A DNA stretch of 64,000 nt from Granulicella arctica. Its GTDB lineage: Bacteria > Acidobacteriota > Terriglobia > Terriglobales > Acidobacteriaceae. Where the stretch lies: contig NZ_JACCCW010000002.1 in assembly GCF_013410065.1 (NCBI RefSeq), positions 744,001-808,000 of the forward strand, given 5' to 3'. Shown piece after piece: positions 6,739 to 22,231 of the stretch (position 1 is its first letter; each line of letters begins with the position of its first letter). The notes beneath the pieces are model-generated. The model did not search any database, had not been told where the DNA came from, and saw nothing but the letters and a program-made list of their open reading frames with translations. The translations under genes were made by a program, and so were the position numbers.

Positions 6739-7920
6739 ATGGGTGACTCAGAGCCAAAGTTTCGGAGTCAAGGTCTATTCGAGGTCGAGACGGACCTGTT
6801 CCACTCGCGGCAGGAGTTCGCTCGTGGCCGCACGATTCTTCGCTGGGTCGGGCTGATGTACTCCGCAGACTTCTTTATTTTTCCGTACTTCCGCCACTCG
6901 ATGTCTGTATGGATTGCATTTGCGCTCTTCTACGCAGCGTTTCTGGTTCTTTATTTTGTCGTTGTGGAGCTTAGGGGGCGCAGACAGCAGATTGCCTTCG
7001 CGCTCTTCTTTCTGCTCGGTTTCCTCTACTACCCATTCAACCGCCACGCCGCCGGAGCGTTTGTCTACCCATTCGCGATAATGGCTTTCTTCGTAAGGCG
7101 TCTGCGCACCTTGTTTCTTGTGCTGACGGTGCAGATGGTTGGCATTGTGTTGGAGACCTGGTATTTCGACCTATCTATGGAGAAGGCGGAGAGTGTTTTG
7201 TTCTTCTCCGTAGTCATTGGCCTATGTAACTTCGCTTACTCGCAGCAGGCGCGAGCCAACTTCCTTCTGGAACAGGCGAACGCTGAGATTGAGTATCTGT
7301 CGCAGGAGGCCGAGCGAGAGCGTATCGCGCGGGATCTGCACGATTTGCTCGGCCACACACTGACGGTCATCACCGTGAAGCTTGATCTTGCACGGAGGCT
7401 TCTGTCCCGCGATTCTGCACAGGCGCTGCATGAGATTATCGAATCGGAGCAGACGGCGCGAAAGGCTTTGGCGGACGTTCGCGAAGCGGTTGTCGGCTAC
7501 CGCGCCGAGGGCCTAACCGCGGAGATTGCTCGTGCGCGGCGCACGCTGCTCTCCGCTGACGTGCAACTCACTACGAGCATCGCCCCTGTAGCGCTATCTC
7601 CTGTACAGGTCAACGTACTCTGCCTCGCTTTGCGCGAGGCTGTGACGAACATCGTCCGGCACGCACATGCATCGGCTTGTCATATGGAGCTCTCCGAGGT
7701 CGACGCGCAGATCTACCTGACGGTCGGCGATAATGGCAACGGCGGCACTCTGCGCGAGGGAAACGGTCTGCTGGGTATGCGTGAACGGCTTCACGCGGTG
7801 TCGGGAACAGTCAAGCTCTCGAGCTCCACAAAAGACGGCACGAGGCTGGTGCTTGCGTTACCGATTTGCTTAGACGCTCGCCTGCGCCCACAGTCTATGA
7901 GAGAGGTGGAATCAGTGTGA
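6739..7920 (+). CDS. Sensor histidine kinase, HisKA_3 / LiaS-DesK type
   Basis: 393-aa membrane kinase. About six hydrophobic segments in residues ~35-170, with almost no extracytoplasmic domain, then a short coiled coil (LLEQANAEIEYLSQEAE). The dimerisation box RERIARDLHDLLGHTLTVI carries the phospho-accepting His201. The ATP-binding domain shows ALREAVTNIVRHAHA (N box) and VGDNGNGG...GNGLLGMRERL (G boxes). The DLHD box followed by LGH is typical of kinases paired with NarL/LuxR regulators, and the regulator gene overlaps its stop by 4 bases. A sensor with only membrane helices usually senses membrane or envelope state. It is divergent from a TonB receptor with operator-like repeats between them. 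Confidence 0.9.
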   Translation: MGDSEPKFRSQGLFEVETDLFHSRQEFARGRTILRWVGLMYSADFFIFPYFRHSMSVWIAFALFYAAFLVLYFVVVELRGRRQQIAFALFFLLGFLYYPFNRHAAGAFVYPFAIMAFFVRRLRTLFLVLTVQMVGIVLETWYFDLSMEKAESVLFFSVVIGLCNFAYSQQARANFLLEQANAEIEYLSQEAERERIARDLHDLLGHTLTVITVKLDLARRLLSRDSAQALHEIIESEQTARKALADVREAVVGYRAEGLTAEIARARRTLLSADVQLTTSIAPVALSPVQVNVLCLALREAVTNIVRHAHASACHMELSEVDAQIYLTVGDNGNGGTLREGNGLLGMRERLHAVSGTVKLSSSTKDGTRLVLALPICLDARLRPQSMREVESV

Positions 7921-8531
7921 CCGATAGAATTCGTGTCGTGCTGGCAGAAGACCAGAGCATGTTGCGGGGTGCGTTGGCCGCACTGCTGTCTATCGAACCG
8001 GACATCGAGGTCGTCGGGACCTTTCCAGACGGCGCACAGGCGCTTCAGGCCGTCGACAAGCAGCGCCCGAACGTTCTGGTGACCGACATCGAGATGGCGA
8101 AGATGACCGGGCTCGAGCTGACTACACGCACGCGAGAGCTCTACCCGGAGACGCGAGTTCTCATCCTCACAACCTTTGCGCGTCCCGGCTACCTGCGTCG
8201 TGCTCTCGAGGCAGGGGCGTATGGTTACCTGCTCAAGGACCGTCCTTCGGAGGAGCTTTCTGACGCCGTGCGCCGGGTAAGCCGTGGAATACGCGTCGTT
8301 GATCCGGACCTGGCGTCTGAGATCTGGAGCGCGGAGAAGGATCCGCTCACCGACCGCGAGCGCCAAATTCTTCGACGTGCAGGGGACGGCGAGAGTACGA
8401 CCGAGCTGGCACTCTCGCTTCGTCTCACCGAAGGAACCGTACGCAACTACCTCTCAGAGGCAATTTCGAAGTTGGGCGCGTCTAGCCGTTTTGAAGCGGC
8501 TCGGCTGGCCCGGAACAAGGGATGGCTCTAG
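7917..8531 (+). CDS. Response regulator, NarL/FixJ family
   Basis: 204-aa partner of the kinase. It is read from GTG at 7917, which overlaps the kinase stop (GTGA) and has GAGAGGTGG upstream; this start gives a receiver domain of normal length. Acidic pocket AEDQ near the N-terminus, phospho-accepting Asp57 in VLVTDIEM, conserved Thr in LTTFA and Lys in LLKDRP. The C-terminal LuxR helix-turn-helix is at ~140-204 (LTDRERQILRRAGDGESTTELALSLRLTEGTVRNYLSEAISKLGASSR). Translational coupling implies balanced synthesis with the kinase. Likely targets are the tandem inverted repeats at 6651-6702, meaning its own operon and the divergent TonB receptor. Confidence 0.93.
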   Translation: MTDRIRVVLAEDQSMLRGALAALLSIEPDIEVVGTFPDGAQALQAVDKQRPNVLVTDIEMAKMTGLELTTRTRELYPETRVLILTTFARPGYLRRALEAGAYGYLLKDRPSEELSDAVRRVSRGIRVVDPDLASEIWSAEKDPLTDRERQILRRAGDGESTTELALSLRLTEGTVRNYLSEAISKLGASSRFEAARLARNKGWL

Positions 8532-8579: not shown

Positions 8580-9875
8580 TTATGCGGGATCTGCTCCGAG
8601 TAGATCGATGGCGGTCAGTGCCATGATCTTTGCTGCGCTGACGACGTCCTCTACGAGGCAATATTCATCTGGAAGATGAGCCTGATTGAGAATGCCTGGA
8701 CCGTAGGCGATACACTGAGCAACGCTTCCGATTCTGACGACATGCTTCTGGTCGTATGTGCCGGGGCTGGCCGTAAGCTTAGGTTTTTTGCCGAAGAGCT
8801 CCTCTACGTTTTTGCTGATTGTTGTGACCAGTTGGCAATTCTCGTCGGTATGCACTGGGTGAACGACCATCAAGTCTTCCACTTTGTATTGGAAGTCGGG
8901 GTTTTTGGCCTGCAACGATTCAAGCATGGCGTAGATTTCTCCACGCACTTCTTCGAAGGACTCTTCAGAGAGGAAGCGGCGATCAAAGATTGCCCCGGAA
9001 CGATCCGCGACGCAAGGGGTTTGGGTGCCTTCTTCGGGCTGTCCTCCGAAGACCGAGTTGATATTGATGCTGGCGAAGCGGGAGCCGGCGGGTTCGACCG
9101 GGACTGCTGTTTTGCGAGTAGCCAGGACGGGTTTGAGTCCGTGGGTGACATCGTGAAGGAAGTCAGCCATGTGGTCGATCGCACTGACACCGAAGTGGGG
9201 CATGGAGCCATGAGCGATGCGCCCATGCGTGGTGATCTTGAACCAGTAGACCCCGCGATGGCCGAGGCACACTCGATCGACATTCGTAGGCTCGGTGATG
9301 ATGACGTAGTCGGTCTTATCCTGGCCGATCCACCCCTGTTTTGCGAGGTAGGCGACACCAGCAAAGCCTCCACTTTCCTCATCGACACTTCCGCTCTGCT
9401 CTACGGTCCCATGCAGCTTGATTCCGGCCCTTCGAATTGCCTCGACCGCGAAGATTGAGGCGGCGATTCCAGCTTTCTGGTCGGAGACGCCTCGTCCATA
9501 GAGCTTGCCGTCACGGATGTGTGCGGCGAAGGGGTCCATGGTCCAGCCGTCGCCTGCGGGGACGACATCGAAGTGGCCGTTGAAATGAAGGCATGGGCGT
9601 GGCTTTGCGCCTTCGAGTCTGCCAAGGACGTTGATGCGTGGATGCTGAGGTGTGTTTTCAGCGAGTCCGTTCGCCGCGATGTAGTGGGTTTCGTAGCCAA
9701 ATTCATGCAGGGTTTTGCCAATGAACTCGGCGCCTGCTTTATAGTTCTCGCCTGGGGGATTGATGGTCGGAATGCGGACAAGATCCTGGAGGAAGGAGAT
9801 CATCTCTGCCTGGATCTCTTCGACGCTCCGGTAGACAGCGTCTTGATACTTTTGAGACAAGTGTTGAGCAACCAT
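8580..9875 (-). CDS. M20 family metallohydrolase (ArgE/DapE-like deacylase)
   Basis: 431-aa cytoplasmic dinuclear-zinc amidohydrolase. Metal ligands are recognisable: NGHFDVVP (His and Asp), GRGVSDQKAG (bridging Asp), SVDEESGG (Glu pair: base and ligand), and a C-terminal AHLPDEY (His). The dimerisation domain contains HGRIAHGSMPHFG. ArgE/DapE relatives remove acyl groups from N-acyl amino acids, or cleave dipeptides or carbamoyl amino acids; the sequence alone does not say which. Two GTATAC sites (10042, 10073) lie upstream of its start, the same motif seen before other genes of this island, so it is probably regulated with them. It may release free amino acid for the class III aminotransferase at 13863. 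Confidence 0.85.
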   Translation of the reverse strand: MVAQHLSQKYQDAVYRSVEEIQAEMISFLQDLVRIPTINPPGENYKAGAEFIGKTLHEFGYETHYIAANGLAENTPQHPRINVLGRLEGAKPRPCLHFNGHFDVVPAGDGWTMDPFAAHIRDGKLYGRGVSDQKAGIAASIFAVEAIRRAGIKLHGTVEQSGSVDEESGGFAGVAYLAKQGWIGQDKTDYVIITEPTNVDRVCLGHRGVYWFKITTHGRIAHGSMPHFGVSAIDHMADFLHDVTHGLKPVLATRKTAVPVEPAGSRFASININSVFGGQPEEGTQTPCVADRSGAIFDRRFLSEESFEEVRGEIYAMLESLQAKNPDFQYKVEDLMVVHPVHTDENCQLVTTISKNVEELFGKKPKLTASPGTYDQKHVVRIGSVAQCIAYGPGILNQAHLPDEYCLVEDVVSAAKIMALTAIDLLGADPA

Positions 9876-10037
9876 GGATTAACCTCGGCATGTTATGGAT
9901 GCATTATTCAGAATGATCCACACCGTGCGACACGAGAGTGTTGATCTGCCGTCGCGCGTGGGGTCCTCGATTGCAATAAGTAGATCTGGTGATATGGGGA
10001 TGTCACCGTATCCCTCGTCCAACCACCGCATATCGTA

Positions 10038-10082
10038 TCAAGTATACTGTAATTGAGTTTAGTCCAAATAAAGTATACAGGA
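10038..10082. promoter_or_regulatory. Paired GTATAC operator-like sites
   Basis: Two matches, AAGTATACTG (core 10042-10047) and AAGTATACAG (core 10073-10078), lie 31 bases apart (about three helical turns) upstream of the M20 gene. Spacing on one helical face fits cooperative binding by FCD-GntR dimers. Alternatively TATACT is simply a -10 element. Confidence 0.5.
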
Positions 10083-10334
10083 TGATTATATCGGTATATG
10101 AAAGCGATAAGACCGCGTGAATAGGAAAGTCGTGCAGAGTAGGGAAGCAGGGTTTTATGAGCTTTGGCCGACAAAGGGTTTTGCGTCTTTCTTGTGGCGA
10201 TTCGGAGAGCCTTATTTCAGGAAGTTCGATCGGCGGATTGCGGTGTATAGGGTCCCTTTTATCTATGTAGGAATCAAGGGACAGAGAGTCGCTGTATGCA
10301 GTTTCTCGGACCTTCACTTCGTGAGTAGGGTAGT

Positions 10335-10344
10335 TCGTATACAC
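10335..10344. promoter_or_regulatory. GTATAC site just upstream of first GntR gene
   Basis: TCGTATACAC, with core 10337-10342, ends 13 bases before the ATG at 10356. It would overlap a -10 box or the transcript start, as expected for autorepression. Confidence 0.45.
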
Positions 10345-10355
10345 TTGTTTGCGTC

Positions 10356-11129
10356 ATGCAAACTACCGTCGATCGCCTTTATCAAGAGATGCTGCAAGCA
10401 ATCGTGGAGTGCGAACTTTCTCCGGGTGCATCTTTTTCCGAGGCTGAACTTGGACGTCGGTACAGTGCATCGCGGACGCCGATTCGAGAGGCATGCCGGA
10501 GGCTGGAGAACGACGGACTCATTCGGATTGCTCCGTTCCGAGGCTATTCCATCGTGCCGTTGTCTGTGAAAGAGTTCCTGGAGCTTGAGGAGCTACAGTT
10601 AATCATTGAACCTGCAGCTGCTGCTCTTGCAGCCGTCAGGATCAGCGAAGAGCAGCTTGCTGCTCTAGAAGGCTGCGCCTTCTATGAGTATCAAAAGGGA
10701 GATCCGAAGAGCTACCGAGAGTTTATTCAGAGCAATTACAAATTTCATACTGTCATTGCGCAAGCCAGCCGCAACAAACAGCTTTGCAAGATGGTTGAAA
10801 ATGTGCAGATCCGCCTCATGAGGTTCTTTTACCTGGGACTGCCATTCGACTCCTGGGGAGAGCAGCTGGTGACGGAACATCGATCGCTGGTTGAGGCGAT
10901 TCGAAATCACAGACCTGAAGAAGCTCGTCGATTCGCTACGGTGCATCTACAGAATGCAATGCAGCGTAGTAATGTCGGCACGATGAACGCGATCCGTTTT
11001 GGGGAGATGATATTCGATCCCTCGTCTAGTGAGCCTGTGGTTTGGATGAGCAATAAGATGATGAGCAACGCGGCATTTCCGAGGAGCCGCACGCCACACA
11101 AAAAGCAGCACAGCAGCAGCAAACTCTAA
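10356..11129 (+). CDS. GntR family regulator, FCD subfamily (copy 1)
   Basis: 257-aa transcription factor. N-terminal winged helix (residues ~5-70; SEAELGRRYSASRTPIREACRRLENDGLI is the classic GntR recognition region), then an all-helical FCD ligand-binding domain (~80-220) with the usual metal-binding type residues (His in FHTVIA, TEHRSLVEAI and VHLQNAM). The tail after ~235 is basic, Ser-rich and low-complexity. No ribosome site precedes the ATG, and a GTATAC/-10-like element ends 13 bases before it, so the transcript may be nearly leaderless. It is strongly similar to the next gene, a tandem duplication. FCD regulators normally sense carboxylates or amino acids and repress catabolic genes; the surrounding island is the likely target. 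Confidence 0.92.
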   Translation: MQTTVDRLYQEMLQAIVECELSPGASFSEAELGRRYSASRTPIREACRRLENDGLIRIAPFRGYSIVPLSVKEFLELEELQLIIEPAAAALAAVRISEEQLAALEGCAFYEYQKGDPKSYREFIQSNYKFHTVIAQASRNKQLCKMVENVQIRLMRFFYLGLPFDSWGEQLVTEHRSLVEAIRNHRPEEARRFATVHLQNAMQRSNVGTMNAIRFGEMIFDPSSSEPVVWMSNKMMSNAAFPRSRTPHKKQHSSSKL

Positions 11130-11197
11130 AAGAGAGGGGCTGGATTGTTGTAGAAGCGGTGCTTCTTGTAAGGCCTAGCGTGGGTCTTCAAGTGCGA

Positions 11198-11208
11198 CTG
11201 TATACCAG
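11198..11208. promoter_or_regulatory. GTATAC site upstream of second GntR gene
   Basis: CTGTATACCAG, with core 11200-11205, is a near-perfect palindrome 86 bases before the ATG at 11292. It is the same motif as at the other island promoters. Confidence 0.45.
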
Positions 11209-11291
11209 ATGCGTACTTTATTCTGATAATGATACGGAGATACGCTTCTAATCCCGGTAGTAAAGAGACGCACATATAGAATTGGGTTCGA

Positions 11292-12056
11292 ATGCAGACT
11301 ACGGTCGAACGTGTTTATCAGAAACTTCGTCAAGCGATTGTCGAATGCGAGTTATCCCCTGGGACTTCGTTTTCAGAATCTGACTTGGTTCGTCGATACA
11401 AAGCATCCCGTACGCCAGTGCGTGAGGCTTGTCAGCGTTTGGAGCACGAGGGGTTAGTGCGCATCGTTCCATTTCGCGGATATTCGATTGCTCCTCTTTC
11501 TGTTGCAGAGTTTCTCGAGATGCAGGAGCTGCAACTCATTCTTGAACCGGCTGCTGCTGCGCTGGCTGCGGAACGGATCACTCCAGAGCAAGTTGCGGAG
11601 CTTGAAGAGTGTGCACTGTACGAGTACCGCGTCGGAGACGCGGAGAGCTATCGGGAGTTTGTAAGAAAGAATCATCAGCTACATACTGCGATCGCTTCGG
11701 CTTCGCGAAATCGCCAGCTGTTTGAGACCGTTAATAATATTCATGTGCGACTGATGCGCTTCTTCTTTCTCGGCCTGCCGTTTGAGTCGTGGGGAGAGAC
11801 GCTTGTTGAAGAGCATCGGAAGCTGCTGGGGGCGATTCGTAATCGTCAACCTGAAGAGGCCCGTCGATATGCCGCCGAACATATTCAGAACGCTATTCAG
11901 CGCAGCAGCAACGAGACTATGAATGCAATTCGTTTTGGTGAACTTATCTTTGATCCGAATAGCAGTAACGTCGCGACGAAGATGAATGCAGAGGAGACAC
12001 GGAAGAGTCTGCGGATGACGAAGAGAACGCGGAAATCCAGTAGGCCGAAAGAATAG
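11292..12056 (+). CDS. GntR family regulator, FCD subfamily (copy 2)
   Basis: 254-aa paralogue of the preceding gene. It shares the opening MQTTV, the DNA-binding helix (SESDLVRRYKASRTPVREACQRLEHEGLVRI) and the FCD core (HTAIASASRNRQL, FLGLPFESWGE, EEHRKLLGAIRN). The basic C-terminal tail differs (TKRTRKSSRPKE). The recognition helices are nearly identical (SRTPIREAC and SRTPVREAC), which predicts the same or very similar DNA sites, while divergence in the FCD half would allow different effectors or heterodimers. It has its own upstream GTATAC site, so the two copies may be expressed separately. Confidence 0.92.
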   Translation: MQTTVERVYQKLRQAIVECELSPGTSFSESDLVRRYKASRTPVREACQRLEHEGLVRIVPFRGYSIAPLSVAEFLEMQELQLILEPAAAALAAERITPEQVAELEECALYEYRVGDAESYREFVRKNHQLHTAIASASRNRQLFETVNNIHVRLMRFFFLGLPFESWGETLVEEHRKLLGAIRNRQPEEARRYAAEHIQNAIQRSSNETMNAIRFGELIFDPNSSNVATKMNAEETRKSLRMTKRTRKSSRPKE

Positions 12057-12104
12057 CTATCAGGATTTTTGTGAGTTGGCGGCTGCCGAGTTTGAAACGG
12101 GGTT

Positions 12105-13754
12105 TCAGAGGTTAGATAGGTGGAGTTCGATCGTGGAGTGGCTCCACGCAGCATCGAACTGGGACTTGACCAGTGCAGCATCTGCGCCTCGTTTCTGCAT
12201 CAGTAGGCTTTGCCAGAGACCGAAGAGCGAACGACCATTCCTTGGATTCAGTTCGAGATCGCGACGGAAAACAGCTTCTGCTTCGACGGGCTGGTTGTCG
12301 CGCAGGAGTGCGCCTCCAAGCGATTCACGGACGGGATAATACCAGTCAGAGGGTTCGTTGTAGGCAAATCTGTCGAGTGACTGTACGGCTTCTTTCCATA
12401 ACAGGATGGCTTTGGTTTTTTCGCCACGAGCTTCAAGAATTCGTGCGTCGAGCACGGTTAGCGCGAGAGCCAGTGCTGCGTGAGCGGAATTATTGAAGTC
12501 CGGCGGGACGTCTGGACGCAGATTCTGGATCGTACCAGCGAGATCTGCGCGTTCGATCGCTGCCTGCTCTGGCTTGTTGAGGGCGGTGAACGCCGACCCT
12601 CGAGCGTAATGCCACATTGCGTTTAGCATGGGCAGACTGGGTGGTGGAAGTGGCGTATGAAGGATGGTCTGCCACTGATCGAAGCGTACGAGCATCCAGG
12701 GCTGGGTGGGGAGATACCACTCCATGCCTCGGCTTTGAGGTACTTCGGGTGTGACGTGTTCGACGAGTTGAGCCGCCGCATTTTCGGCGCAGGTGCGATT
12801 GCCCTCCATGCTACAGGCCGAGGCGAGAAAGTGCATGTTGTGGGTGTAATACATGCTGTCGTACATATTTGCGACGTGTTGGAGGTGCTGGATGCGGAAG
12901 TAGGTACGATCGACCTGTACGGCGTGCTCGTTAGCGAGAGCTGAACCGTTGAAATCTCCTACACGCTGGTAGATGTGCGCCGGCATGTGTACAAGATGGC
13001 CAGCGGCAGGGGCCAGGGTCTCGAGCCGTATGGCACTCGGCAGGGCGATAGATGGATCTGGGGAGGCTTCGACGGCGTGAATGAGGAAGTGATTTGCGCC
13101 AACGTGGTCGGGATCTCGTAGGAGTACGCCCTGGAGCGTGGACACGATCTCCTGTGTATCTTCGGCAGGCTTACCGTCGGCCGACCAGAGTTGCCAAGGG
13201 TGCAGATCCATGAGGCTCTCAGCATAGAGAGTTGCGGCATCGAGGTCGTCGGGATGTCTGGCGACGAGATTGGCCATTGCTTTACTGTAGCGTTGGCCTT
13301 CGAGATGAAGGTCGTGGTTGGCATCCTGTGCGAAACGCGTGGCGAGTGCGTCGATGTAATCCTTTTCGAGGGCAGGTCCATCGGCTGCAAGCTGACGTGC
13401 TTTTGTGATCGCGACGAGTGACTGCTGCTCACGAGCGTGGCCAATATCAATGTCGTTGTAGTTCGGGCCGACGGCGAGTGCTATTCCCCAGAGTGGCATT
13501 GCTGCCTGCGGATCAATGTCGGCGGCCTTCTGAAAAGATCGGCGTGCCTCGTCATGGTTGAAGGCGAAGAGATAGTTCATGCCCTGATTGAAGTATCGCT
13601 GGGCTTCGGGTTTATTCGTGCGGATGGCGTGGTGCGAATTGCCGAGGCCACTCATAAGGGGGACTGGGCGTGAGTCGGGCGCGGGCATCTGCATCTGAGC
13701 GACGCAGAGGATGGAACTGAAGCATAACAATAGTAAGGAGGTGCAGGAGTTCAT
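12105..13754 (-). CDS. Secreted tetratricopeptide-repeat protein
   Basis: The ATG at 13754 is chosen: it has an AAAGG upstream and starts a signal peptide (MNSCTSLLLLCFSSILCVAQ). 549 aa. TPR-like helical pairs fill the chain: EAQRYFNQGMNYLFAFNHDEARRSFQKAADIDPQ near the N-terminus, and a final pair AEAVFRRDLELNPRNGRSLFGLWQSL. Between them are conserved His/Met-rich helices (HFLIHAVEASPDP, HLVHMPAHIYQRVGD, MYDSMYYTHNMHFLASAC) seen in a family of secreted TPR proteins annotated only as hypothetical. It sits inside the GTATAC island, between the second GntR and the aminotransferase. A periplasmic scaffold or binding role is possible but not shown. Confidence 0.75.
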   Translation of the reverse strand: MNSCTSLLLLCFSSILCVAQMQMPAPDSRPVPLMSGLGNSHHAIRTNKPEAQRYFNQGMNYLFAFNHDEARRSFQKAADIDPQAAMPLWGIALAVGPNYNDIDIGHAREQQSLVAITKARQLAADGPALEKDYIDALATRFAQDANHDLHLEGQRYSKAMANLVARHPDDLDAATLYAESLMDLHPWQLWSADGKPAEDTQEIVSTLQGVLLRDPDHVGANHFLIHAVEASPDPSIALPSAIRLETLAPAAGHLVHMPAHIYQRVGDFNGSALANEHAVQVDRTYFRIQHLQHVANMYDSMYYTHNMHFLASACSMEGNRTCAENAAAQLVEHVTPEVPQSRGMEWYLPTQPWMLVRFDQWQTILHTPLPPPSLPMLNAMWHYARGSAFTALNKPEQAAIERADLAGTIQNLRPDVPPDFNNSAHAALALALTVLDARILEARGEKTKAILLWKEAVQSLDRFAYNEPSDWYYPVRESLGGALLRDNQPVEAEAVFRRDLELNPRNGRSLFGLWQSLLMQKRGADAALVKSQFDAAWSHSTIELHLSNL

Positions 13755-13862
13755 GTTTAGCCTTTGTTTATCATGCGAGGAACTTCTGCGGGCAGTCTTG
13801 CCGCATAAGCGGGGCCGGCAACAGGCGAAATGAAGAGCGTGCTGCCAGCCCATCATGAGAGG

Positions 13863-15224
13863 TTAAATGAGGGCTGGTTCGGCCTCGAGGAGAGCGTCTG
13901 CGAGGATGAGGGCTTCATCGAGTGCGGCGACGGCTTCGTCGATCTGAGCTTTCTCGACAATGAGAGGCGGAGCGAGAACAAAGTGACTCATCCATGCCTG
14001 CATGACGACACCCTTGGAGAGCATGCGGGCGGCGATCTGCTCAACGAGTATCGGCTTGCCATCGAGTTTCTCCTGCCACGTATTGAAGGGCCGTTTGGCT
14101 TGTTGATCCTTGACGAGTTCTACTGCCCAGAAGAGACCGAGGCCGCGAACGTTGCCAATCGATGGATGCGAGGCCTTCAGCGCGTGGAGTTTTTCACCTA
14201 GGTAGGCTCCCATCTCGTTGGCTCGATCGATCAGGCCGAGACGCTGCATCTTGTGGATGGTGGCGATGGCTGGGGCGAGGGTCATGGGATGCGCTTCGTA
14301 GGTGTGGCCGTGGGCGAAGTAGTTCTCCTCGAAGAAGTCGGCGATCTTCTGGGTGGTCGCACAGAGGCCGAGCGGAACGTAGGCAGAGGTGATGCCCTTG
14401 GCTGTTGTTAAAATATCCGGTTGGACGCCCCAGTTATCGATGGCAAACCACTTGCCAGTTCTACCCCAGCCACTCATCACCTCGTCGGCGATGAGAAGTA
14501 CGCCGTGATCGTCGCAGATTTTACGCAGCTTTGGGAAGTACTCGGGCGGCGGGATGAGCACCCCATTGGTTCCGACCACGGGTTCGACCAGTACTGCTGC
14601 TACATCTCCCTCATTGGCGATCATATGCTCGAGGTAGTCCGCACAGGCGATACCGCACTGAGGATAGGTGTGGCGGATGGGACATTTGTAACAGTTGACC
14701 TCGGGCGAAAAGATGACGCCATGGCCCTTTCCTGAGGGCTCTATCGGCCAGCGTCGTGGATCTCCAGTAGCCGCGATTGAACTCGAGGTGGAACCATGGT
14801 ACGAGCGGTAGCGCGAGATGATTTTAGTTTTACCTGTATACATGCGAGCAATCTTGAATGCGGCTTCGTTGGCATCCGTGCCGGAGGTAGTGAAGAAGAA
14901 CTTGGTCATCCCAGGCGGGAGCACATCAAGAAGCAGCTTGCTGAGTTCAGCACGCGCAGTCGTAGCATAGAAGGGAGCGGCATATGCCAGTGTCGAGGCC
15001 TGATCCTGGATCGACTGAATGACTGCTGGGTTGTTGTGACCGAGATTCATGCACATGAGCTGCGACGAGAAATCGAGGAAGCGCTTGCCATCGCCGTCGG
15101 TGAAGTAGCATCCATCGGCGCTGAGAAGGTGAGAAGGATTCCAGTTTTTCTGTTTACGCCATGTGCCGTAGTTATGTTTTTTGGTAAGCGCGATGACTTC
15201 TAAGGATGAAAGCGGATTAGACAT
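13863..15224 (-). CDS. Class III (omega) aminotransferase, PLP-dependent
   Basis: 453-aa fold-type-I enzyme of the class III group, which move amino groups from non-alpha positions (omega-amino acids, beta-alanine, diamines, taurine) to pyruvate or 2-oxoglutarate. Seen: LMCMNLGHNNPAVIQSI (substrate-side loop), FFTTSGTDANEAAFKIAR (phosphate-binding), RYRSYHGSTSSS, LIADEVMSGWGRTGKW (the Asp contacting pyridine N), and TTAKGITSAYVPLG with the Schiff-base lysine at residue 276. A cysteine cluster (CYKCPIRHTYPQCGIAC) is typical of one subgroup. A GAGGAAA ribosome site precedes the ATG. It lies about 100 bases from the TPR gene and in the same island as the P1 hydrolase and M20 deacylase, fitting the removal of an amino group in a catabolic route. 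Confidence 0.9.
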   Translation of the reverse strand: MSNPLSSLEVIALTKKHNYGTWRKQKNWNPSHLLSADGCYFTDGDGKRFLDFSSQLMCMNLGHNNPAVIQSIQDQASTLAYAAPFYATTARAELSKLLLDVLPPGMTKFFFTTSGTDANEAAFKIARMYTGKTKIISRYRSYHGSTSSSIAATGDPRRWPIEPSGKGHGVIFSPEVNCYKCPIRHTYPQCGIACADYLEHMIANEGDVAAVLVEPVVGTNGVLIPPPEYFPKLRKICDDHGVLLIADEVMSGWGRTGKWFAIDNWGVQPDILTTAKGITSAYVPLGLCATTQKIADFFEENYFAHGHTYEAHPMTLAPAIATIHKMQRLGLIDRANEMGAYLGEKLHALKASHPSIGNVRGLGLFWAVELVKDQQAKRPFNTWQEKLDGKPILVEQIAARMLSKGVVMQAWMSHFVLAPPLIVEKAQIDEAVAALDEALILADALLEAEPALI

Positions 15225-15739
15225 GAAGTTTCCTCGGTGAAGCTATGTTTCGTCAGAACCTGTTTGTAGCGTGAGATTGGTATGTCGTCAAGCCGGATGG
15301 CGCTATCCACACGATGTGTGGATAGGCCGCGGAGTCTGATCAGTAAGCAGTGCAAGGCAGCCATGGTCTTCTTGTGCAGCCAGGAGCAGACAGTAATATC
15401 GCGTCTCGTCGCGCATTAGAATGCTCCTCCTTCGTGGCGTTCATGATGGCGAGCCTTAGCGAGAAAGAAAGAGGAGATAATCCGGTATGAGTTGAATACC
15501 ATTTGTGTTCAGAGCCGTCAATCGGTGAGTTTGCTCATGTCCACACTTCTTGTAAATGCTGTATTTATCTATGTGATCTTACTCGCTAATCTGTATACCG
15601 AATATTGACTGAGTATCGGTGGTGCGGTAAGGTCTACTCATTCCTGGCTGCCGGTAAGCCTCATTTTCAATCCGCAAATTTTAGAGTTGCGGTGTTTCTG
15701 CATCGTCTCTATTTCACAGGTGTTGAAAAGGATTACACC
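15225..15739. other. Divergent intergenic region of the island
   Basis: 515 bases between the aminotransferase (leftward) and the P1 hydrolase (rightward). It holds a GTATAC site at 15593 and an imperfect relative, GGTAT-7 bases-ATACC (15484-15500). No open frame here is convincing. Confidence 0.45.
15590..15601. promoter_or_regulatory. GTATAC site upstream of P1 hydrolase
   Basis: TCTGTATACCGA, with core 15593-15598, is 147 bases before the P1 start at 15740. Same motif as the other island promoters. Confidence 0.45.
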
Positions 15740-16831
15740 ATGCTTCGACGTCAGTTTGCACGCAATCTGCTAGGTCTTCCTTTTGCTACTGCCTTACCGC
15801 TTGCTGCTTTGTCTGCTACGGATTCCAGTTTGTCTTCCATGCCTGAAGGGGGCTCAATTACGGATGTCGGCGGGCTTCGGGTTGGGCACTACACCCATAC
15901 CGACCGCCCGACGGGTTGCACGGTGTTGATCTGTGAAGGAGGAGCGACAGCGGGGGTCGATGTCAGGGGATCGGCGCCTGGCACGCGCGAGACGGATCTG
16001 CTCTCTCCTACCAATGCGGTGCAGCAGGTGAATGCCATCATGCTGTCGGGCGGTAGCGCCTATGGTCTCGATGCTGCGAGCGGAGTTATGCGGTACCTGG
16101 AAGAGATGCATCTGGGCTTCAAGATCGGCAACCTGGGCGTTGTGCCCATCGTGCCGGCCGCCATTTTAATGGATCTTGGTGTTGGGAACTTCAAGATTCG
16201 TCCGAATGCAGAGTCGGGTTATAAGGCGTGTCTTGCTGCGGATACAGGACCGGTTCCGGAAGGCAACGTTGGCGCAGGCGCGGGAGCCACTATAGGGAAG
16301 ATGTTTGGGCCCCAGTATGCAATGAAGTCGGGTCTCGGGACTGCCAGCGTCAAGGTTGGAGATACCGGGATCGTAGTGGGCGCCCTGGTAGCAGTGAATG
16401 CCGCTGGCGACGTGGTGCGACCGGAATCAGCCAAGATCGTTGCCGGAGCGCGAACAGAGGATGGCAAAGGTTATCGCAACTCCATGGCTGCCGTGATGGA
16501 CGGATATCAAGTTGCTGTTCGACATGGTGCAAACACGACGATTGGCGTGGTCGCGACCAATGCGAAGTTCACGAAGGTACAGATGACGAAGATTGCGCAG
16601 ATGGCTCACGATGGCTATGCGCGGGCTATCAATCCGGTGCACACGATGTTCGATGGCGACACGATTTTTTCAATGTCAACGGGAACGTCGGAGGTTACGG
16701 CAGACGTGTCCGCGATTGGAGAGATCGCTGCAGTGGTGATGGCGCGAGCGATTGTGCGTGCGGCTATGCAGGCAACCAGCATTCCCGAGCTGGGATTGAT
16801 CGCCTACCGTGACTATCCGGGCCGCGGTTGA
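15740..16831 (+). CDS. P1 family N-terminal-nucleophile hydrolase (NylC/DmpA-like), exported
   Basis: The ATG at 15740 is chosen for the AAAGGA 7 bases upstream; it gives 363 aa. The N-terminus reads MLRRQFARNLLGLPFATALPLAAL, a twin-arginine-like signal, so the folded enzyme probably acts in the periplasm. The core matches the P1/DmpA superfamily: ITDVGGLRVGHYT, PTGCTVLICEGGATAGVDVRG, MLSGGSAYGLDAASGVMRYLEE, and NVGAGAGATIGK. The segment GANTTIGVVATNAKFTK places Asn265-Thr266 at the expected self-cleavage site, where the new N-terminal Thr becomes nucleophile. This is the NylC (6-aminohexanoate oligomer hydrolase) arrangement rather than the Gly-Ser of DmpA. P1 enzymes hydrolyse beta-peptides, D-amino acid amides or nylon oligomers; the substrate here is unknown. 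Neighbours suggest amide-linked omega- or beta-amino acids. Confidence 0.85.
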   Translation: MLRRQFARNLLGLPFATALPLAALSATDSSLSSMPEGGSITDVGGLRVGHYTHTDRPTGCTVLICEGGATAGVDVRGSAPGTRETDLLSPTNAVQQVNAIMLSGGSAYGLDAASGVMRYLEEMHLGFKIGNLGVVPIVPAAILMDLGVGNFKIRPNAESGYKACLAADTGPVPEGNVGAGAGATIGKMFGPQYAMKSGLGTASVKVGDTGIVVGALVAVNAAGDVVRPESAKIVAGARTEDGKGYRNSMAAVMDGYQVAVRHGANTTIGVVATNAKFTKVQMTKIAQMAHDGYARAINPVHTMFDGDTIFSMSTGTSEVTADVSAIGEIAAVVMARAIVRAAMQATSIPELGLIAYRDYPGRG

Positions 16832-16909
16832 AGATCGTTCCTGCGGTGCATGTAGTGTGGTCTGAACTACATCAGAGATAGGCATCGAACAGCGCGTCTG
16901 CGAATGTAC

Positions 16910-16921
16910 TCGGTATACTGC
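16910..16921. promoter_or_regulatory. GTATAC site (distal) before TonB receptor
   Basis: TCGGTATACTGC, with core 16913-16918, lies 80 bases after the P1 stop and about 300 before the receptor start. Confidence 0.4.
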
Positions 16922-17084
16922 ATTTTAGCTTTAGTTGTGAGGTTGGAAGGCTGGCGTTTCTGCGGTCGAGCAAGCTGATTGCTAGCAATTACCCCATATA
17001 AAGGTCGCAAGACAGGTATCAGATCAAGAGAGAATGAAAAAACTCTTGCACTGAAGCACGTTGAAAGCTATGCTGACTCCATCT

Positions 17085-17096
17085 TCAGTATACCAA
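17085..17096. promoter_or_regulatory. GTATAC site (proximal) before TonB receptor
   Basis: TCAGTATACCAA, with core 17088-17093, is about 120 bases before the receptor ATG. Confidence 0.4.
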
Positions 17097-17213
17097 TGTC
17101 CTTTATATTTATTAAATCAGAATACAGAATGCGTTTTCGACTTGTTCTGATAGGTTTCTGCACACTTTTGCCTCGTCCGCACGATTAACCGCGACTTTAC
17201 AAGGAGCACTTCC

Positions 17214-20200
17214 ATGCGAGATTTCTTGCCATTCAAAGTGTGTCTCAGTCTGGCCTTATGCTGCGTGTTTCATTTTTTGGGGAATCCTATTGCGTTTGGC
17301 CAGGCGACCGGACAGATATCCGGAGTTGTAAGTGATTCCTCCGGGAGTGTCGTTCCTAAGGCTGTTGTGACGATAACGAACAGTGAAACCAGCGAATCGC
17401 GCAATGTCCTGGCGGGCGCGGACGGGTTCTATGTTGCTCCATTGATGAATCCCGGTATTTATAAGATAGAGGCCGGTCTTGCAGGGTTCAAGACAACGGT
17501 ACGCGATGGAATTCAAGTGACCGTCAATGGAACGGCTCGCGTAGATTTTAGTCTTGCCGTCGGTGCAACGAGGGATCAGGTCACAGTAACCTCGGGTCAA
17601 TCTCTTATACAGACTGACGATTCGACGCTGGGGATTGTGGTCGATCATGCCAAGATCATCGATCTTCCTCTCAACGGCCGCAATTTTACGCAGTTAGGTA
17701 CGCTGATTCCTGGTGTGCTGGCTCCCCCGGCATCCTTGGGAGGGTCCGATGGCAACGCAACGGTAGGCGGGGCATCACCGAACACGACCGGGTTCAGTGT
17801 TAACGGCCAGCGTAACCAGTCAAACAGCTTTGAATTGGATGGCGCGGATAACAACGACACCTTCAACAGCGGGTTCGTCCTTCGTCCGCCGCCAGACGCC
17901 ATCCAGGAATTCAAGATTTTGACCCACTCCTATGCGGCGGAATATGGAAGAAACGCTGGATCGATTGTGAACGTTGTAACCAAAGAGGGCACAAATGAGT
18001 TTCACGGTGCTGCCTGGGAGTTCAACCGTAACAGTGTGATGCAGGCGAAGAATTATTTTGCTACACAAAAACCAGCTCTCAATCAGAACCAGTTTGGAGC
18101 GACCCTGGGGGCACCCGTTATCAAGGATCGGTTGTTCGCTTTTGGGTTCTACGAGGGGTTCCGTAATACTCAGGGCGAGACGCAGACCGTTCCGGTGCTT
18201 ACAGCTCTTGAGCGATCAGGCAATTTTGGCAGCAACACGATTATTGATCCGACGACAGGCGTTGCGTTTGCAAACAACACAATTCCTACGAGTCGGATTA
18301 ATACGATTGCAACCAATCTGCTGAACACATATATTCCGCTTCCGAATGCAGGTGGAACGAGCTACACGAAATCCCCGAGCACCCTCGACGATCGGGATCA
18401 ATTTGGTATTCGGCTCGATTACAACGTGAACAGCAAGCACACCTTATTGGGCCGTTATATGTATGGCCGTCAGAATGCGAGCGATCCATTGGCTCCATCG
18501 AACTTTGCTCCCGTCTCGAACCAGGCACACTTCCTCTTACAGGACAGTATGCTGTCAGACACCTGGATATTGCGGTCGAACATGGTTAACGTGGCGCGCA
18601 TGAATGACAACAGAATCTCTGGAACGCCGAACAGTATGAGTGGCATCAATGCCACGACGCTTGGGTTTCAGTATTCGGCCTCAAACCCGGTTGGCGCAGG
18701 TGTTCCGTTCATGACGGTTGCAGGATTCTTTACCGCTGGCGATAACCAGTTTGACTTTGCGCAACGTACCAATAATACGATCAGTATGACGGACGATTTC
18801 ACGTGGATTTTTGGCAAGCACTCGATCAAGATTGGCGGAGAGATCGATCACCAATCCATGGGAATTGCTTTCATCAATCGTCCGAACGGCGACTTCACAT
18901 TCACTGGCCAATATACGGGCAATGCAGCCGCCGACTTCCTGCTGGGTTTCCCTGCACAGTTTCGTCAGGCTTCTGGTGATCCGAACCTGAATGGTACCGC
19001 CTGGAGCTACGCGATCTATGCTCAGGACGAATTTCGCTTGACCTCGCGTCTGACGCTGAACTATGGACTTCGATATGAGGTGTCTCCTCCCTTTGTCGAT
19101 GCACTGAACCATCTCAACGCATTCCACACGGGACAGCAGTCCACTATCAATCCTGATGCTCCAACCGGGCTTGTGTTTCCCGGCGACAAGGGAGTTCCCA
19201 GAGGCACCTACTCTACGGATTATGGCAATGTTGCGCCCCGTCTGGCTGCCACGTGGGACCCGACAGGGAAGGGAACCACAAATATACGTGCCGCCTGGGG
19301 CATCTTCTACGACACGACGCCCGGCCAAGGCAACTTCTTTCAGAATGGAACGCTTGCGGCTCCATATCAGTACCTGACGCAGCTGGACCTGCCACTCGAT
19401 CAGCAGACATGACTGTTTGCGAATCCAGCGGCAGGAACGTCATCGAATAATGGGTTTCCTGCGGGATTGATCTTCATCGGATGGGGTGAGCAATACGCTA
19501 CACCAACCGTGCAGCAGTATAACGTTGGTGTCCAGCATCAAGTGGGCCACAGTTGGGGACTCGAGGCGGACTATGTCGGTTCGCGCGGCGAGCACATGCC
19601 GATGTTCATGGAGATCAATCCAACGACCGCAATTCTGACACCAACGCCCGAAGTTGGGCCGCGACTCATGTCGGCGTTCAGCCTTGTGCGTCCGACCTTC
19701 CCGGTGGCAAAGTCGTGGTATGACTCGCTACAGATGAGCGCGAAGTTGAATACGTGGCATAGCCTTAACCTGCTGGCTTCCTACACGCTTGGGCACTCGG
19801 AAGATCACACGTCCGGCTTGAATATCGGGACCGACAGTACGCCGCCTTATGCCGTAACGATAGGCGACGATGCCTCGATTCAGAAGGCGTTGAAATCGAT
19901 GAAAGGTTATTCCCTGTTCGACGCCCGCAACCGCTTTGTGATGAGTGTCGGTTATCAGTTGCCGACGTTTGCAACGCAGAGACGACTGGTAAACATGGTG
20001 TTGGGGAACTGGCAACTCAATGGCATTTTCCAAGTTCAGAGTGGGTTCCCATTCACTGTGAACGAGCCCGACAATGTGTCTCTGACCTCAGAGTCGCAGA
20101 GACCGAATTTGACCTGCGATCCTAACGCTGGTGCGCCGCACATTATCGGGGAGTGGTTCAATACGAGCTGTGTGCAGCGGCTCACGATTGCCGCTAACGC

Positions 20201-20450
20201 TGGCGAAGTTGGTGATGAGGGACGGAATGTGGTTCGTGGGCCTGGACTAGATAACACCGACTTCTCGCTGTTCAAGAACTTCAAGACGGTTGAGTCAGAG
20301 CAACTTCAGTTCCGCATTGAGACGTTCAACCTGTTCAATCACCCTTACTTCGGTCTGCCCGACAACACGCTGGGTTCACCAACGTTCGGTGCAATCACCA
20401 ATGCAGCAGATGGACGAATTGTTCAGCTTGCAGCGAAGTACATGTTCTAG
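17214..20450 (+). pseudogene. TonB-dependent receptor interrupted by one in-frame TGA
   Basis: Oar-like outer-membrane receptor. An AAGGAG site precedes the ATG and a signal peptide follows. The carboxypeptidase-regulatory domain begins ATGQISGVVSDSSGSVVPKAV; the plug has LPLNGRNFTQL, SVNGQRNQSNSFELDGADNND and EYGRNAGSIVNVVTKEGTNEFHG; the long barrel ends in LAAKYMF. Codon 733 (19410-19412) is TGA, and the same frame continues without a break for 345 more codons that still look like normal barrel sequence (TVQQYNVGVQHQVGHSWGLEADYVGSRGEHMP). The total of 1078 residues is normal for the family. One CGA-to-TGA change, a sequencing error or stop read-through would each explain it. Without read-through the barrel loses its last third. 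It lies in the GTATAC island upstream of the symporter. Confidence 0.8.
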
Positions 20451-20773
20451 GCATCTGCTAGAGCGAAGGCAGCGGTGAGTCGGATATCGTCGATGGACCG
20501 TTGAATGCTGGAGTCCGGCCTGTGGTGGTGGACTCCAAATCTTTTCGCAGTCCGGTATGCTGGGCAATAAAATTTGCCGTGATAAGGTATACCGAAGTTC
20601 CTAAGCTATCTCCACTCTTAGAAGCAGTTCAAAATATGTCAGAGGTCATTCATGGGTGCGGAACATTTTTCGGAACGGTTTCGAATCACGTTTACACGTT
20701 GTAAGGAGGTTTGTGCTGAGGTTGGCACCATAGCGTGTTGTAGAAAGGCTGTGACGCTCTGTAGGCAGGTTGC
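20451..20773. other. Intergenic region before symporter
   Basis: 323 bases with a GTATAC site at 20587 and a near match CCGGTATGCTGG (20552-20563). No gene is seen. Confidence 0.45.
20584..20595. promoter_or_regulatory. GTATAC site upstream of symporter
   Basis: AAGGTATACCGA, with perfect palindromic core GGTATACC (20586-20593), about 180 bases before the symporter ATG. Confidence 0.45.
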
Positions 20774-22231
20774 ATGATGAATCTTTACTCTGCCTCGCTG
20801 CTCTTCTACTCGATCTTTCTGATGGCTCTCGGACTGTTTATTAGTCGCAGGGTAAAGAACTCCTCGGACTTCCTGGTCGCGGGTAGAAGTCTAGGGGCAG
20901 GCCGTATCTTCGCAACCTTGCTCGCTGCCAATATCGGTGCTGGATCGACAGTGGGTGCGGCGGGTCTTGGATATAGGTTTGGGCTCTCGGCATGGTGGTG
21001 GGTGGGTTCGGCGAGTATTGGGACATTTCTACTCTCACAGTGTCTCGGACCAAGGCTTTGGGTCGTAGCTAAGAAGCATAATTTGGCGACCCTCCCTGAT
21101 TTTCTTGAGTTTCGTTATGGGAAGTCGGTGAAGGCTCTCATCGCTGTGATTTTCTGGTTTGGGGCGCTTGCGATCCTGGCCGCCCAACTTATTGCGATCT
21201 CCTGGATTCTCAATACGGTTGCGGGTACCCCCAAATGGGAGGGGTGTGTTCTTGGTGGAGTGGCGGCGATTGTGTATTGCACCGCTGGCGGGTTGATGTC
21301 GACGGCCTTTGTGAATATGTTCGAGTTGGCGGTAACCATGTCCGGCTTGCTGCTTGCGATTCCATTTGCGATTCATAGGCTCGGAGGATGGACGAATCTG
21401 AATGCCTTAATTCTCGTTCAGAAGCATAATGTGGTGGCTGCGCACTCGATGTTCAGCATGATGGGAGCGGGGCCGAAACAGATACTGGTGTGGCTGACGA
21501 TCCTGGTGCCTTCTTTTATGATTTCGCCGGGTCTGGTACAGAAGGTATATGGTGCCCGAGACGTCAAGAGCGTTCGATTGGGCGTGGGGCTCAACTCGCT
21601 GGGGCAGGCGATCTTCGCTTTTGTGCCTCCAATTCTGGGCCTATGCGCTTTTGCTGCCATCCCTCATCTGGCAAATCCGGAGCTTGCGCTACCCGAAGCG
21701 ATGAAGATTCTGCTGCCGAAATGGCTCGGTGTGTGGACGCTGGCTTCCATCTTCTCGGCTGAGTTGAGTGCGACCGATGCTATTTTGTTTATGCTTTCGA
21801 CGTCGCTTGCGGTGGACCTCTATAAGACGTTTCTCAACCCTAGGATCTCGCAGAAGCATTTGCTGGTTGCGAGCCGCGCGGCTTCAGTTTGCGCAGGGGT
21901 GCTTGGGATACTGCTTGCGACCGTCTTGCCTTCGATCATCGCCGCGGTCAGCATCTTCTATGGGTTGCTCGCGGTATCGCTTTTCGTTCCTGTCATTGCA
22001 GGGCTCTATTCGCGGCGAGTGCTCTCTATAGCAGCGCTGAGTTCCATCATTGGAGCCGTAGTTGCCACGCTGGGGACAATTCGTTTAACACAAGGACACG
22101 GATTTTGGCTTTTTTCGCCCCAGGCTATAGGCATCGCAACTGCCACACTCATCATGATTGCCTTCCGCATCTTTTGGCCAGGCCACGCAACGGATAATTT
22201 ATCCTTCGCTGGTGGAACGGATACGAAATAA
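20774..22231 (+). CDS. Sodium:solute symporter family transporter
   Basis: 485-aa inner-membrane protein with about 13 hydrophobic helices. The SSS signature is clear: SSDFLVAGRSLGAG after helix 1, AANIGAGSTVGAAGLGYRFGLSAWWWVGSASIG in helices 2-3, and LPDFLEFRYGKSVKALIA before helix 4. Helix 8-9 shows SAELSATDAILFMLSTSLAVDLYK. SSS members use sodium to import sugars, amino acids, nucleosides or carboxylates; the pattern resembles PutP/PanF-like members more than sugar carriers, but the substrate is not assignable. Position directly after the TonB receptor, with a GTATAC site in front, makes it the likely inner-membrane importer of the island. Start is the first of two adjacent ATGs; the ribosome site (AGGCAGG) is modest. 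Confidence 0.88.
   Translation: MMNLYSASLLFYSIFLMALGLFISRRVKNSSDFLVAGRSLGAGRIFATLLAANIGAGSTVGAAGLGYRFGLSAWWWVGSASIGTFLLSQCLGPRLWVVAKKHNLATLPDFLEFRYGKSVKALIAVIFWFGALAILAAQLIAISWILNTVAGTPKWEGCVLGGVAAIVYCTAGGLMSTAFVNMFELAVTMSGLLLAIPFAIHRLGGWTNLNALILVQKHNVVAAHSMFSMMGAGPKQILVWLTILVPSFMISPGLVQKVYGARDVKSVRLGVGLNSLGQAIFAFVPPILGLCAFAAIPHLANPELALPEAMKILLPKWLGVWTLASIFSAELSATDAILFMLSTSLAVDLYKTFLNPRISQKHLLVASRAASVCAGVLGILLATVLPSIIAAVSIFYGLLAVSLFVPVIAGLYSRRVLSIAALSSIIGAVVATLGTIRLTQGHGFWLFSPQAIGIATATLIMIAFRIFWPGHATDNLSFAGGTDTK

Follow-up and report, generated by a model that had tools for sequence, protein, structure and literature searches.

Positions 8580 to 22231 of a 64,000-nucleotide stretch of Granulicella arctica DNA (the window; C2:744001-808000 of the 4.31-Mb genome G000) probably hold a single-purpose catabolic regulon for pantothenate and pantetheine, controlled by GntR regulators of the FCD subfamily at GTATAC sites. 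The parts of this reading are not equally firm. It is very likely that the island is one regulon sharing GTATAC, and quite likely, from the genes that surround its relatives, that the substrate is pantothenate/pantetheine. The identification of the M20 deacylase as pantothenase (EC 3.5.1.22), a candidate by genome context, is favored with less confidence. Conservation of the motif, linkage of the genes and family membership of the proteins were established directly. The features of the region are collected in Table 1.

The hexamer GTATAC occurs nine times in the window, always within the same 10.6 kb, and the remainder of the 64 kb has no copy. Eight copies are intergenic and lie exactly where the original prediction for this DNA had listed them. 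A further copy had been reported inside the aminotransferase gene at about 14816; it exists and is the only other one in the 64 kb, and its position is 14836. This copy (14836-14841) is found 388 bp into the gene, and the orthologue in locus L065 has one at the same distance (9147). Because the L065 counterpart reads as Met-Tyr-Thr codons, the ninth GTATAC is probably a coding coincidence and not a regulatory site. All five spacers longer than 100 bp (M20/gntR-A, gntR-A/gntR-B, aminotransferase/S58, S58/receptor and receptor/symporter) contain at least one GTATAC, which is their most frequent hexamer, while the runner-up palindrome has two copies. Shuffling the window gave a mean of 3.47 copies and never nine in 100 shuffles, and 1,000 shuffles of the five spacers gave a mean of 0.35 sites and hit at most three of the five. 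At the genome rate, 0.16 copies were expected in the 1,916 intergenic bases of the region, compared with the eight observed, and when the 358 genomic copies were placed uniformly, nine fell within any 10,551 bp in 7 of 20,000 runs.

Both GntR proteins contain PF00392 and PF07729 above the cut-off, which agrees with the earlier description of two FCD-GntR paralogues and places them in the FadR/FCD subfamily. They share 69% identity and group as sisters in a comparison of 20 proteins (support 100/97); therefore, they arose by duplication within the window lineage. Their best NCBIfam matches, PhnR-type and NanR, were both far under the cut-off and so the proteins were not placed in a named group. 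GntR-B was used as the query against 200 family and 299 class genomes (overlapping sets), and 15-20 kb were taken per gene. The search identified a clade of 21 further gntR genes (43-63% identity). In all 21, GTATAC lies no more than 160 bp ahead of the homologous start; the expectation is 0.054 copies per 300 bp. No other hexamer reached all 21 upstream regions; TGTCAA, the reverse complement of TTGACA, was next with 19, and the second-ranked palindrome was present in 4. Among more distant GntR genes (29-37% identity) only 10 of 34 had GTATAC within 300 bp, indicating that the operator is characteristic of the clade and becomes less frequent beyond it. The flanks AGTATACYG, originally suggested, were only weakly represented in the window. 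The orthologous sites tend instead toward CNGTATACNG, fully matched by two of the eight intergenic window sites (15593 and 16913), and paralogous clade members lean to GTATACA, a difference that hints at separate regulator specificities. Seven loci (L035, L036, L037, L039, L040, L073 and L074) carry paralogous GntR genes with GTATACA-type sites, and in six of them the same locus has a TonB receptor match; these may be sister regulons in which the flank specificity has shifted, as the sites suggest. A CNGTATACNG match at C2:606231, 1 kb before an mmsA copy, was dropped because it sits inside a paralogous aminotransferase gene.

The operator consensus of the FadR (FCD) subfamily is GT-N2/3-AC (PMC4494728, available portions), and GTATAC, read as GT-AT-AC, is a palindrome of this form located upstream of the regulator's own gene and of the target genes. 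The regulators with a 2-nucleotide spacer covered by the same portions (GntR, HpxS, UxuR, PrpR, MdcY and HypR) resemble those of the island in combining a helix-turn-helix with an FCD domain, in their palindromic GT-N2-AC sites, in the divergent arrangement of regulator and target and in having a site upstream of their own gene. The island clade differs from them in that the operator of the relatives lies at a fixed distance beside the -35 box, and the window in that operators multiplied along with operon break-up. Escherichia coli NanR is also an FCD-GntR protein and its (GGTATA)3 operator has related core letters; however, it binds direct repeats cooperatively (PMC8012715, in the part available), whereas the island site is a single palindrome. 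Judged by sequence, the regulator and its predicted operator constitute a new group within a kind already known, FCD-GntR.

The arrangement of the cluster in relatives gives the most specific evidence for a shared operator. Nine loci, four of them Granulicella and Edaphobacter records, have TPR-aminotransferase-gntR on the left and receptor-M20-symporter-S58 on the right of a divergent spacer that contains one GTATAC. Genome G405 has the same right half of this order, and its half-cluster of phosphodiesterase (PDE) and MmsA genes, found on a separate contig, has retained GTATAC sites. Genomes G035 and G117 are variants in which gntR has no adjoining aminotransferase (G117 is also devoid of M20), and in Granulicella sp. 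L60 the gene divergent from gntR is S58. The aligned gntR spacers have GTATAC 6 bp upstream of TTGAC in 12 of 13 cases, G117 being the exception. The clusters of the relatives add a short-chain dehydrogenase/reductase (SDR), a CehA/McbA-type PHP protein, a type I phosphodiesterase and MmsA (over the TIGR01722 cut-off); by eye, the PDE and PHP proteins have signal-like N-termini. A second site with the same 6-bp spacing is present upstream of PDE-MmsA in all six same-genus genomes where these genes were found. In the L60 locus, the receptor operon (6360-6400) has a degenerate site, GTATTC, which is also 6 bp from TTGACA. Across 13 genomes the pattern GTATAC-N6-TTGAC was matched 18 times, compared with 5 for the reversed control, and 14 of the 16 matches in the nine cluster-bearing genomes are cluster promoters. 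One of the two non-cluster matches is in G335 and the other is the sole match of G117. The sole match in G000 is the window S58 promoter. As the pattern was built from these same sites, the counts measure its specificity and not its discovery. Both repression and activation are compatible with a site immediately ahead of a -35 box.

The proposal that the island is a single regulon by which an amide-type compound is taken up and degraded was thus well supported by the 21 clade gntR genes and by the conserved sites at the receptor and PDE-MmsA promoters, including those on the separate G405 contig. The compound is probably pantothenate/pantetheine, which goes beyond what the prediction could have known. 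It had also been recognized that GTATAC might be equally common in unrelated regions, for example as a -10 box. This is true of the bare hexamer (358 copies in G000 and 369 of the reversed-hexamer control), which as such proves nothing, so that clustering and conservation were used instead, and of CNGTATACNG (37 and 36), but not of GTATAC-N6-TTGAC with its preference for cluster promoters. The lack of enrichment of CNGTATACNG weighs against the regulon, as does the fact that seven of the eight intergenic window sites do not have the N6-TTGAC spacing. The genome-wide counts would suit the view that GTATAC clusters by chance in AT-rich promoter sequence and has no regulatory role; nevertheless, the conservation between species of the presence, spacing and position of the sites already contradicts this explanation, which we consider extremely improbable.

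The relatives' gene neighborhoods point to the substrate. None of 14 control genomes had a protein over the NF009558 cut-off, and the M20 protein was found in 44 of 396 phylum genomes (E up to 1e-80). Outside the genus of the window 39 genomes were positive for M20, and the neighborhoods of 18 of these were read (the sequences of loci L198, L202 and L204 end near M20). In these 18 Acidobacteriota loci, M20 has nearby an SDR gene in 16, S58 in 14, a sodium:solute symporter (SSF) in 10, a class-III aminotransferase (29-44% identity) in 6 and an isopropylmalate-dehydrogenase-like gene in 5. Among the named M20 loci S58 is nearby in 22 of 25, and the five most distant, L150 to L154 (27-35% identity), have no partner genes. 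M20-SDR in the acidobacterial locus L190 has a gene for type I pantothenate kinase (493 bits against a cut-off of 235) immediately after it; the kinase was present in 1 of the 50 loci scanned for it. In Chloroflexota, loci L147 and L149 combine M20, S58 and SDR with a complete energy-coupling factor (ECF) vitamin transporter, and L147 has in addition a PanE-type reductase over the cut-off. All five Chloroflexota genomes with M20 have one PanT-like S component each, in two of them on a different contig from M20, beside SDR and ECF genes. The only credible solved relatives of the Chloroflexota S component are 4rfs and 6zg3, which are ECF-PanT structures (PMC11521937, available part), and the Chloroflexota and Clostridia components match both far above RibU, ThiT and BioY, as expected of PanT.

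Plasmid records were read for 14 of 28 M20 and 7 of 8 S58 matches (H16, H29 and H31 carry no annotation). Roseobacter litoralis has M20 beside panC-panB and an SDR-cupin-P1 peptidase group about 5 kb further, and a row in Qingshengfaniella comprises M20, a dipeptide-type ABC transporter, an aldehyde dehydrogenase, SDR and a P1 peptidase. In all six haloarchaeal plasmids read, SDR-M20 is accompanied by genes for aldehyde dehydrogenase and class-III aminotransferase (two are cut by the end of the stretch), with MmsA additionally in four of the six, and this gene set is likely an archaeal version of the same pathway. The haloarchaeal plasmids also have a second M20 gene and, variously, MmsA, a C45 peptidase or a sodium symporter. 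Since genes of the relatives adjoin vitamin B5 genes, the cluster probably degrades vitamin B5 or relatives of coenzyme A.

The division of labor between the two hydrolases was deduced from the relatives of the S58 protein, a member of the S58/P1 (DmpA) family. Its alignment with six other proteins showed NTTIG in six of the seven, including that of the window, and TTIG in all; N-T-T is presumably the autoprocessing site. Its matches among solved structures are a nylon-66 hydrolase, ThnT (185.9 bits) and NylC. In Clostridioides difficile and Anaerotruncus, a P1 peptidase stands in one string with an ECF S component and a type III pantothenate kinase (CoaX), and Eubacterium eligens has an ECF S-P1 string. 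The S components of the first two (L247 and L249) match PanT. With PanT and CoaX as its partners in salvage, a hydrolase would be expected to produce pantothenate and not to destroy it; for this reason S58 was assigned to pantetheine and M20 to pantothenate. These Clostridia peptidases are candidate enzymes for the salvage of pantetheine to pantothenate in gut bacteria. The Clostridia systems resemble the island in having a P1 peptidase with 48% identity to the window S58 in a gene string and differ in leading to coenzyme A, with no M20 or SDR annotated in the 11-13-kb stretches read.

The opposite assignment, in which the same regulon uses S58 as the pantothenase while M20 performs another step or acts on another acyl-amino acid, has in its favor that S58 is near M20 in 14 of the 18 Acidobacteriota loci, and we also count for it the acyl-enzyme mechanism reported for Pseudomonas pantothenase. 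We regard it as unlikely. The destruction of pantothenate would be pointless in the Clostridia, where PanT and pantothenate kinase are neighbors of the S58 relatives, and loci L190 and L191 have M20-SDR with no S58 detected.

The chemistry of the two compounds also entered into the assignment of S58 to pantetheine and M20 to pantothenate. Pantothenate is N-pantoyl-beta-alanine with a free carboxylate, an N-acyl amino acid of the type used by M20 deacylases, and pantetheine is the cysteamine amide of pantothenate. In the route of Pseudomonas fluorescens, pantothenase (EC 3.5.1.22) is followed by pantoate dehydrogenase and dimethylmalate dehydrogenase, and in the classical pathway three oxidations take pantoate to 2-oxoisovalerate. 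The SDR, the aldehyde dehydrogenase and the isopropylmalate-dehydrogenase-like enzyme would match these three oxidations. The predicted route thus resembles that of P. fluorescens in amide hydrolysis, in pantoate oxidation by these three kinds of enzyme and in the use of beta-alanine, and the window genome departs from it in having no close SDR.

We propose the following sequence of events, in which binding by GntR, the inducer, the enzyme activities and the substrate are all predictions. Dimers of GntR-A or GntR-B would bind, at every promoter region of the cluster, a palindrome with GTATAC at its center. They would probably control transcription by staying on the DNA beside the -35 box or the start site until an inducer binds. 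The exported S58 enzyme would cleave pantetheine to pantothenate and cysteamine, the symporter would import the pantothenate, and the cytosolic M20 enzyme would split it into pantoate and beta-alanine. The class-III aminotransferase and MmsA would convert beta-alanine to acetyl-CoA. In the relatives, SDR, the aldehyde dehydrogenase and the isopropylmalate-dehydrogenase-like enzyme would oxidize pantoate, and PDE together with PHP, both presumably exported, could trim coenzyme A to pantetheine, the weakest step of the scheme; the clusters of the relatives perhaps degrade coenzyme A too.

Several observations count against this substrate and pathway. The assignment is based on neighbors, and the neighbor counts have no matched background. 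The symporter scored 95 bits with the panF model TIGR02119 (cut-off 328), lower than its PRK10484 score. A PanT-like S component was absent from all three Acidobacteriota genomes searched, Chloroflexota locus L144 has M20, S58 and the ECF vitamin transporter but no SDR was seen there, and the P1 gene of Selenomonas showed no link to PanT or CoaX. The M20 and panC genes of R. litoralis have convergent orientations and are not one operon, and annotated pan genes were absent near M20 in four Proteobacteria plasmids (Ideonella, two Azospirillum and one Paracoccus) and in R. ponti. The dipeptide-type ABC transporters near M20 or P1 genes in Rhodobacterales would suit a peptide, and the top-scoring solved relative of S58 is the nylon-66, poly(hexamethylene adipamide), hydrolase. 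In the window genome, PHP has no match, PDE has a partial match of 30% only and the best SDR is 38% identical, none being close. The TonB receptor gene is interrupted by an in-frame TGA (19410-19412) at a position that is open in all five orthologues, so it may be a pseudogene or contain a sequencing error. The absence of SDR, PHP and PDE orthologues together with the interrupted receptor indicates that the window copy may be reduced or partly decaying and that the local pathway may be partial; the relatives hold candidates for most steps.

Two other substrates were considered and ranked lower than pantothenate/pantetheine. The same regulon could serve a beta-alanyl or other omega-amino-acid peptide (carnosine-like), in which case S58 would be a beta-aminopeptidase and M20 a dipeptidase, and beta-alanine would be used by the aminotransferase and MmsA. 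S58/DmpA-type enzymes and M20 carnosinases both have known activity of this kind, the weak matches of M20 include a beta-Ala-His dipeptidase, and the Rhodobacterales transporters mentioned above would fit. However, the PanT, PanE, CoaA, CoaX and panC-panB neighbors and the SDR/isopropylmalate-dehydrogenase-like pair would be left unexplained, and we judge a peptide substrate quite unlikely. Degradation of nylon-like polyamide oligomers or other synthetic amides, suggested by the nylon-66 hydrolase and NylC matches of S58, is highly unlikely given that the neighbors are vitamin B5 genes, that M20 is present in 44 of 396 phylum genomes and that the module also occurs in Chloroflexota and haloarchaea.

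Returning to pantothenate and pantetheine, a wider reading, to which we give even chances, is that the cluster and its relatives make up a full catabolic route for vitamin B5 and coenzyme A in bacteria and haloarchaea. S58 would then be a bacterial pantetheinase, M20 of NF009558 the long-sought pantothenase, and the GntR clade a dedicated GTATAC-binding regulator in Acidobacteriaceae. It would include a rewiring in the window lineage, where the receptor-M20-symporter-S58 operon is split into separate units, each with its own GTATAC, and gntR is duplicated. The closest MmsA copies of the window genome (57-59% identical) are located away from the island. An ancestral divergon with a single operator would have been broken up, each new unit gaining an operator as the regulator was duplicated, a natural experiment in regulon rewiring.

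The activity that breaks down pantothenate has been known since the 1960s, and in 2023 the protein identity of pantothenase was stated to be unknown (PMC10393543, available portions). The S58 protein ThnT degrades the pantetheinyl group to cysteamine in thienamycin biosynthesis (PMC6097109, in part). That dismantling of coenzyme A resembles the island in using an S58-family hydrolase on the amide bond of pantetheine, and PDE could feed the S58 of the relatives; the likeness is one of sequence match, and the island differs in its catabolic context, exported enzyme and other partner genes. Among the open-access papers listed, no title or opening of an abstract described this gene set or operator (subscription papers were largely outside the search), and the main texts of PMC12570885 and PMC6593275 contain no word starting with "peptidase". 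The M20 proteins of NF009558 (pantothenate) and the S58 proteins (pantetheine) constitute short lists of candidate genes for a simple enzyme assay. In addition, the GntR clade gains a predicted operator and a case in which operon break-up is paralleled by operator multiplication, and the P1 peptidases beside PanT-type transporters and pantothenate kinase bear on the use of dietary coenzyme A by gut Clostridia.

Table 1. Genes and predicted operators at positions 8580 to 22231 of the window.
Feature	Position	Strand	Evidence or location
M20 deacylase (NF009558/PRK13013), candidate pantothenase	8580..9875	-	NF009558 579 bits (cut-off 428); neighbors in other taxa
GTATAC, predicted operator 1	10042..10047	.	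M20/gntR-A spacer
GTATAC, predicted operator 2	10073..10078	.	M20/gntR-A spacer
GTATAC, predicted operator 3	10337..10342	.	19 bp upstream of gntR-A start codon
FCD-GntR regulator A	10356..11129	+	PF00392 + PF07729
GTATAC, predicted operator 4	11200..11205	.	92 bp upstream of gntR-B
FCD-GntR regulator B	11292..12056	+	PF00392 + PF07729
Tetratricopeptide repeat (TPR) protein, signal-like N-terminus (by eye)	12105..13856	-	TPR models; in relatives, found together and linked with the aminotransferase gene
Class-III aminotransferase, candidate beta-alanine aminotransferase	13863..15224	-	PF00202; closest solved relative 6jix
GTATAC, predicted operator 5	15593..15598	.	Aminotransferase/S58 spacer, 6 bp upstream of TTGACT
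S58/P1 hydrolase, twin-arginine-like N-terminus, candidate pantetheine amide hydrolase	15740..16831	+	PF03576; PDB 9cxr, ThnT; PanT/CoaX neighbors of relatives
GTATAC, predicted operator 6	16913..16918	.	Upstream of TonB receptor
GTATAC, predicted operator 7	17088..17093	.	Upstream of TonB receptor
Oar-like TonB receptor	17214..20450	+	In-frame TGA at 19410-19412
GTATAC, predicted operator 8	20587..20592	.	Upstream of symporter
Sodium:solute symporter (SSF)	20774..22231	+	PF00474; no substrate given by family models

The start of the S58 gene is more likely at 15740 than at 15605 in view of the twin-arginine-like signal. A pair of genes adjoining the island (window positions 6739-8531), recognized by eye in the translations as histidine kinase and response regulator, has no GTATAC within it. 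The closest solved relative of the aminotransferase is a taurine:2-oxoglutarate aminotransferase, a name also given to many of its top database relatives, and the closest named ones are from Granulicella.

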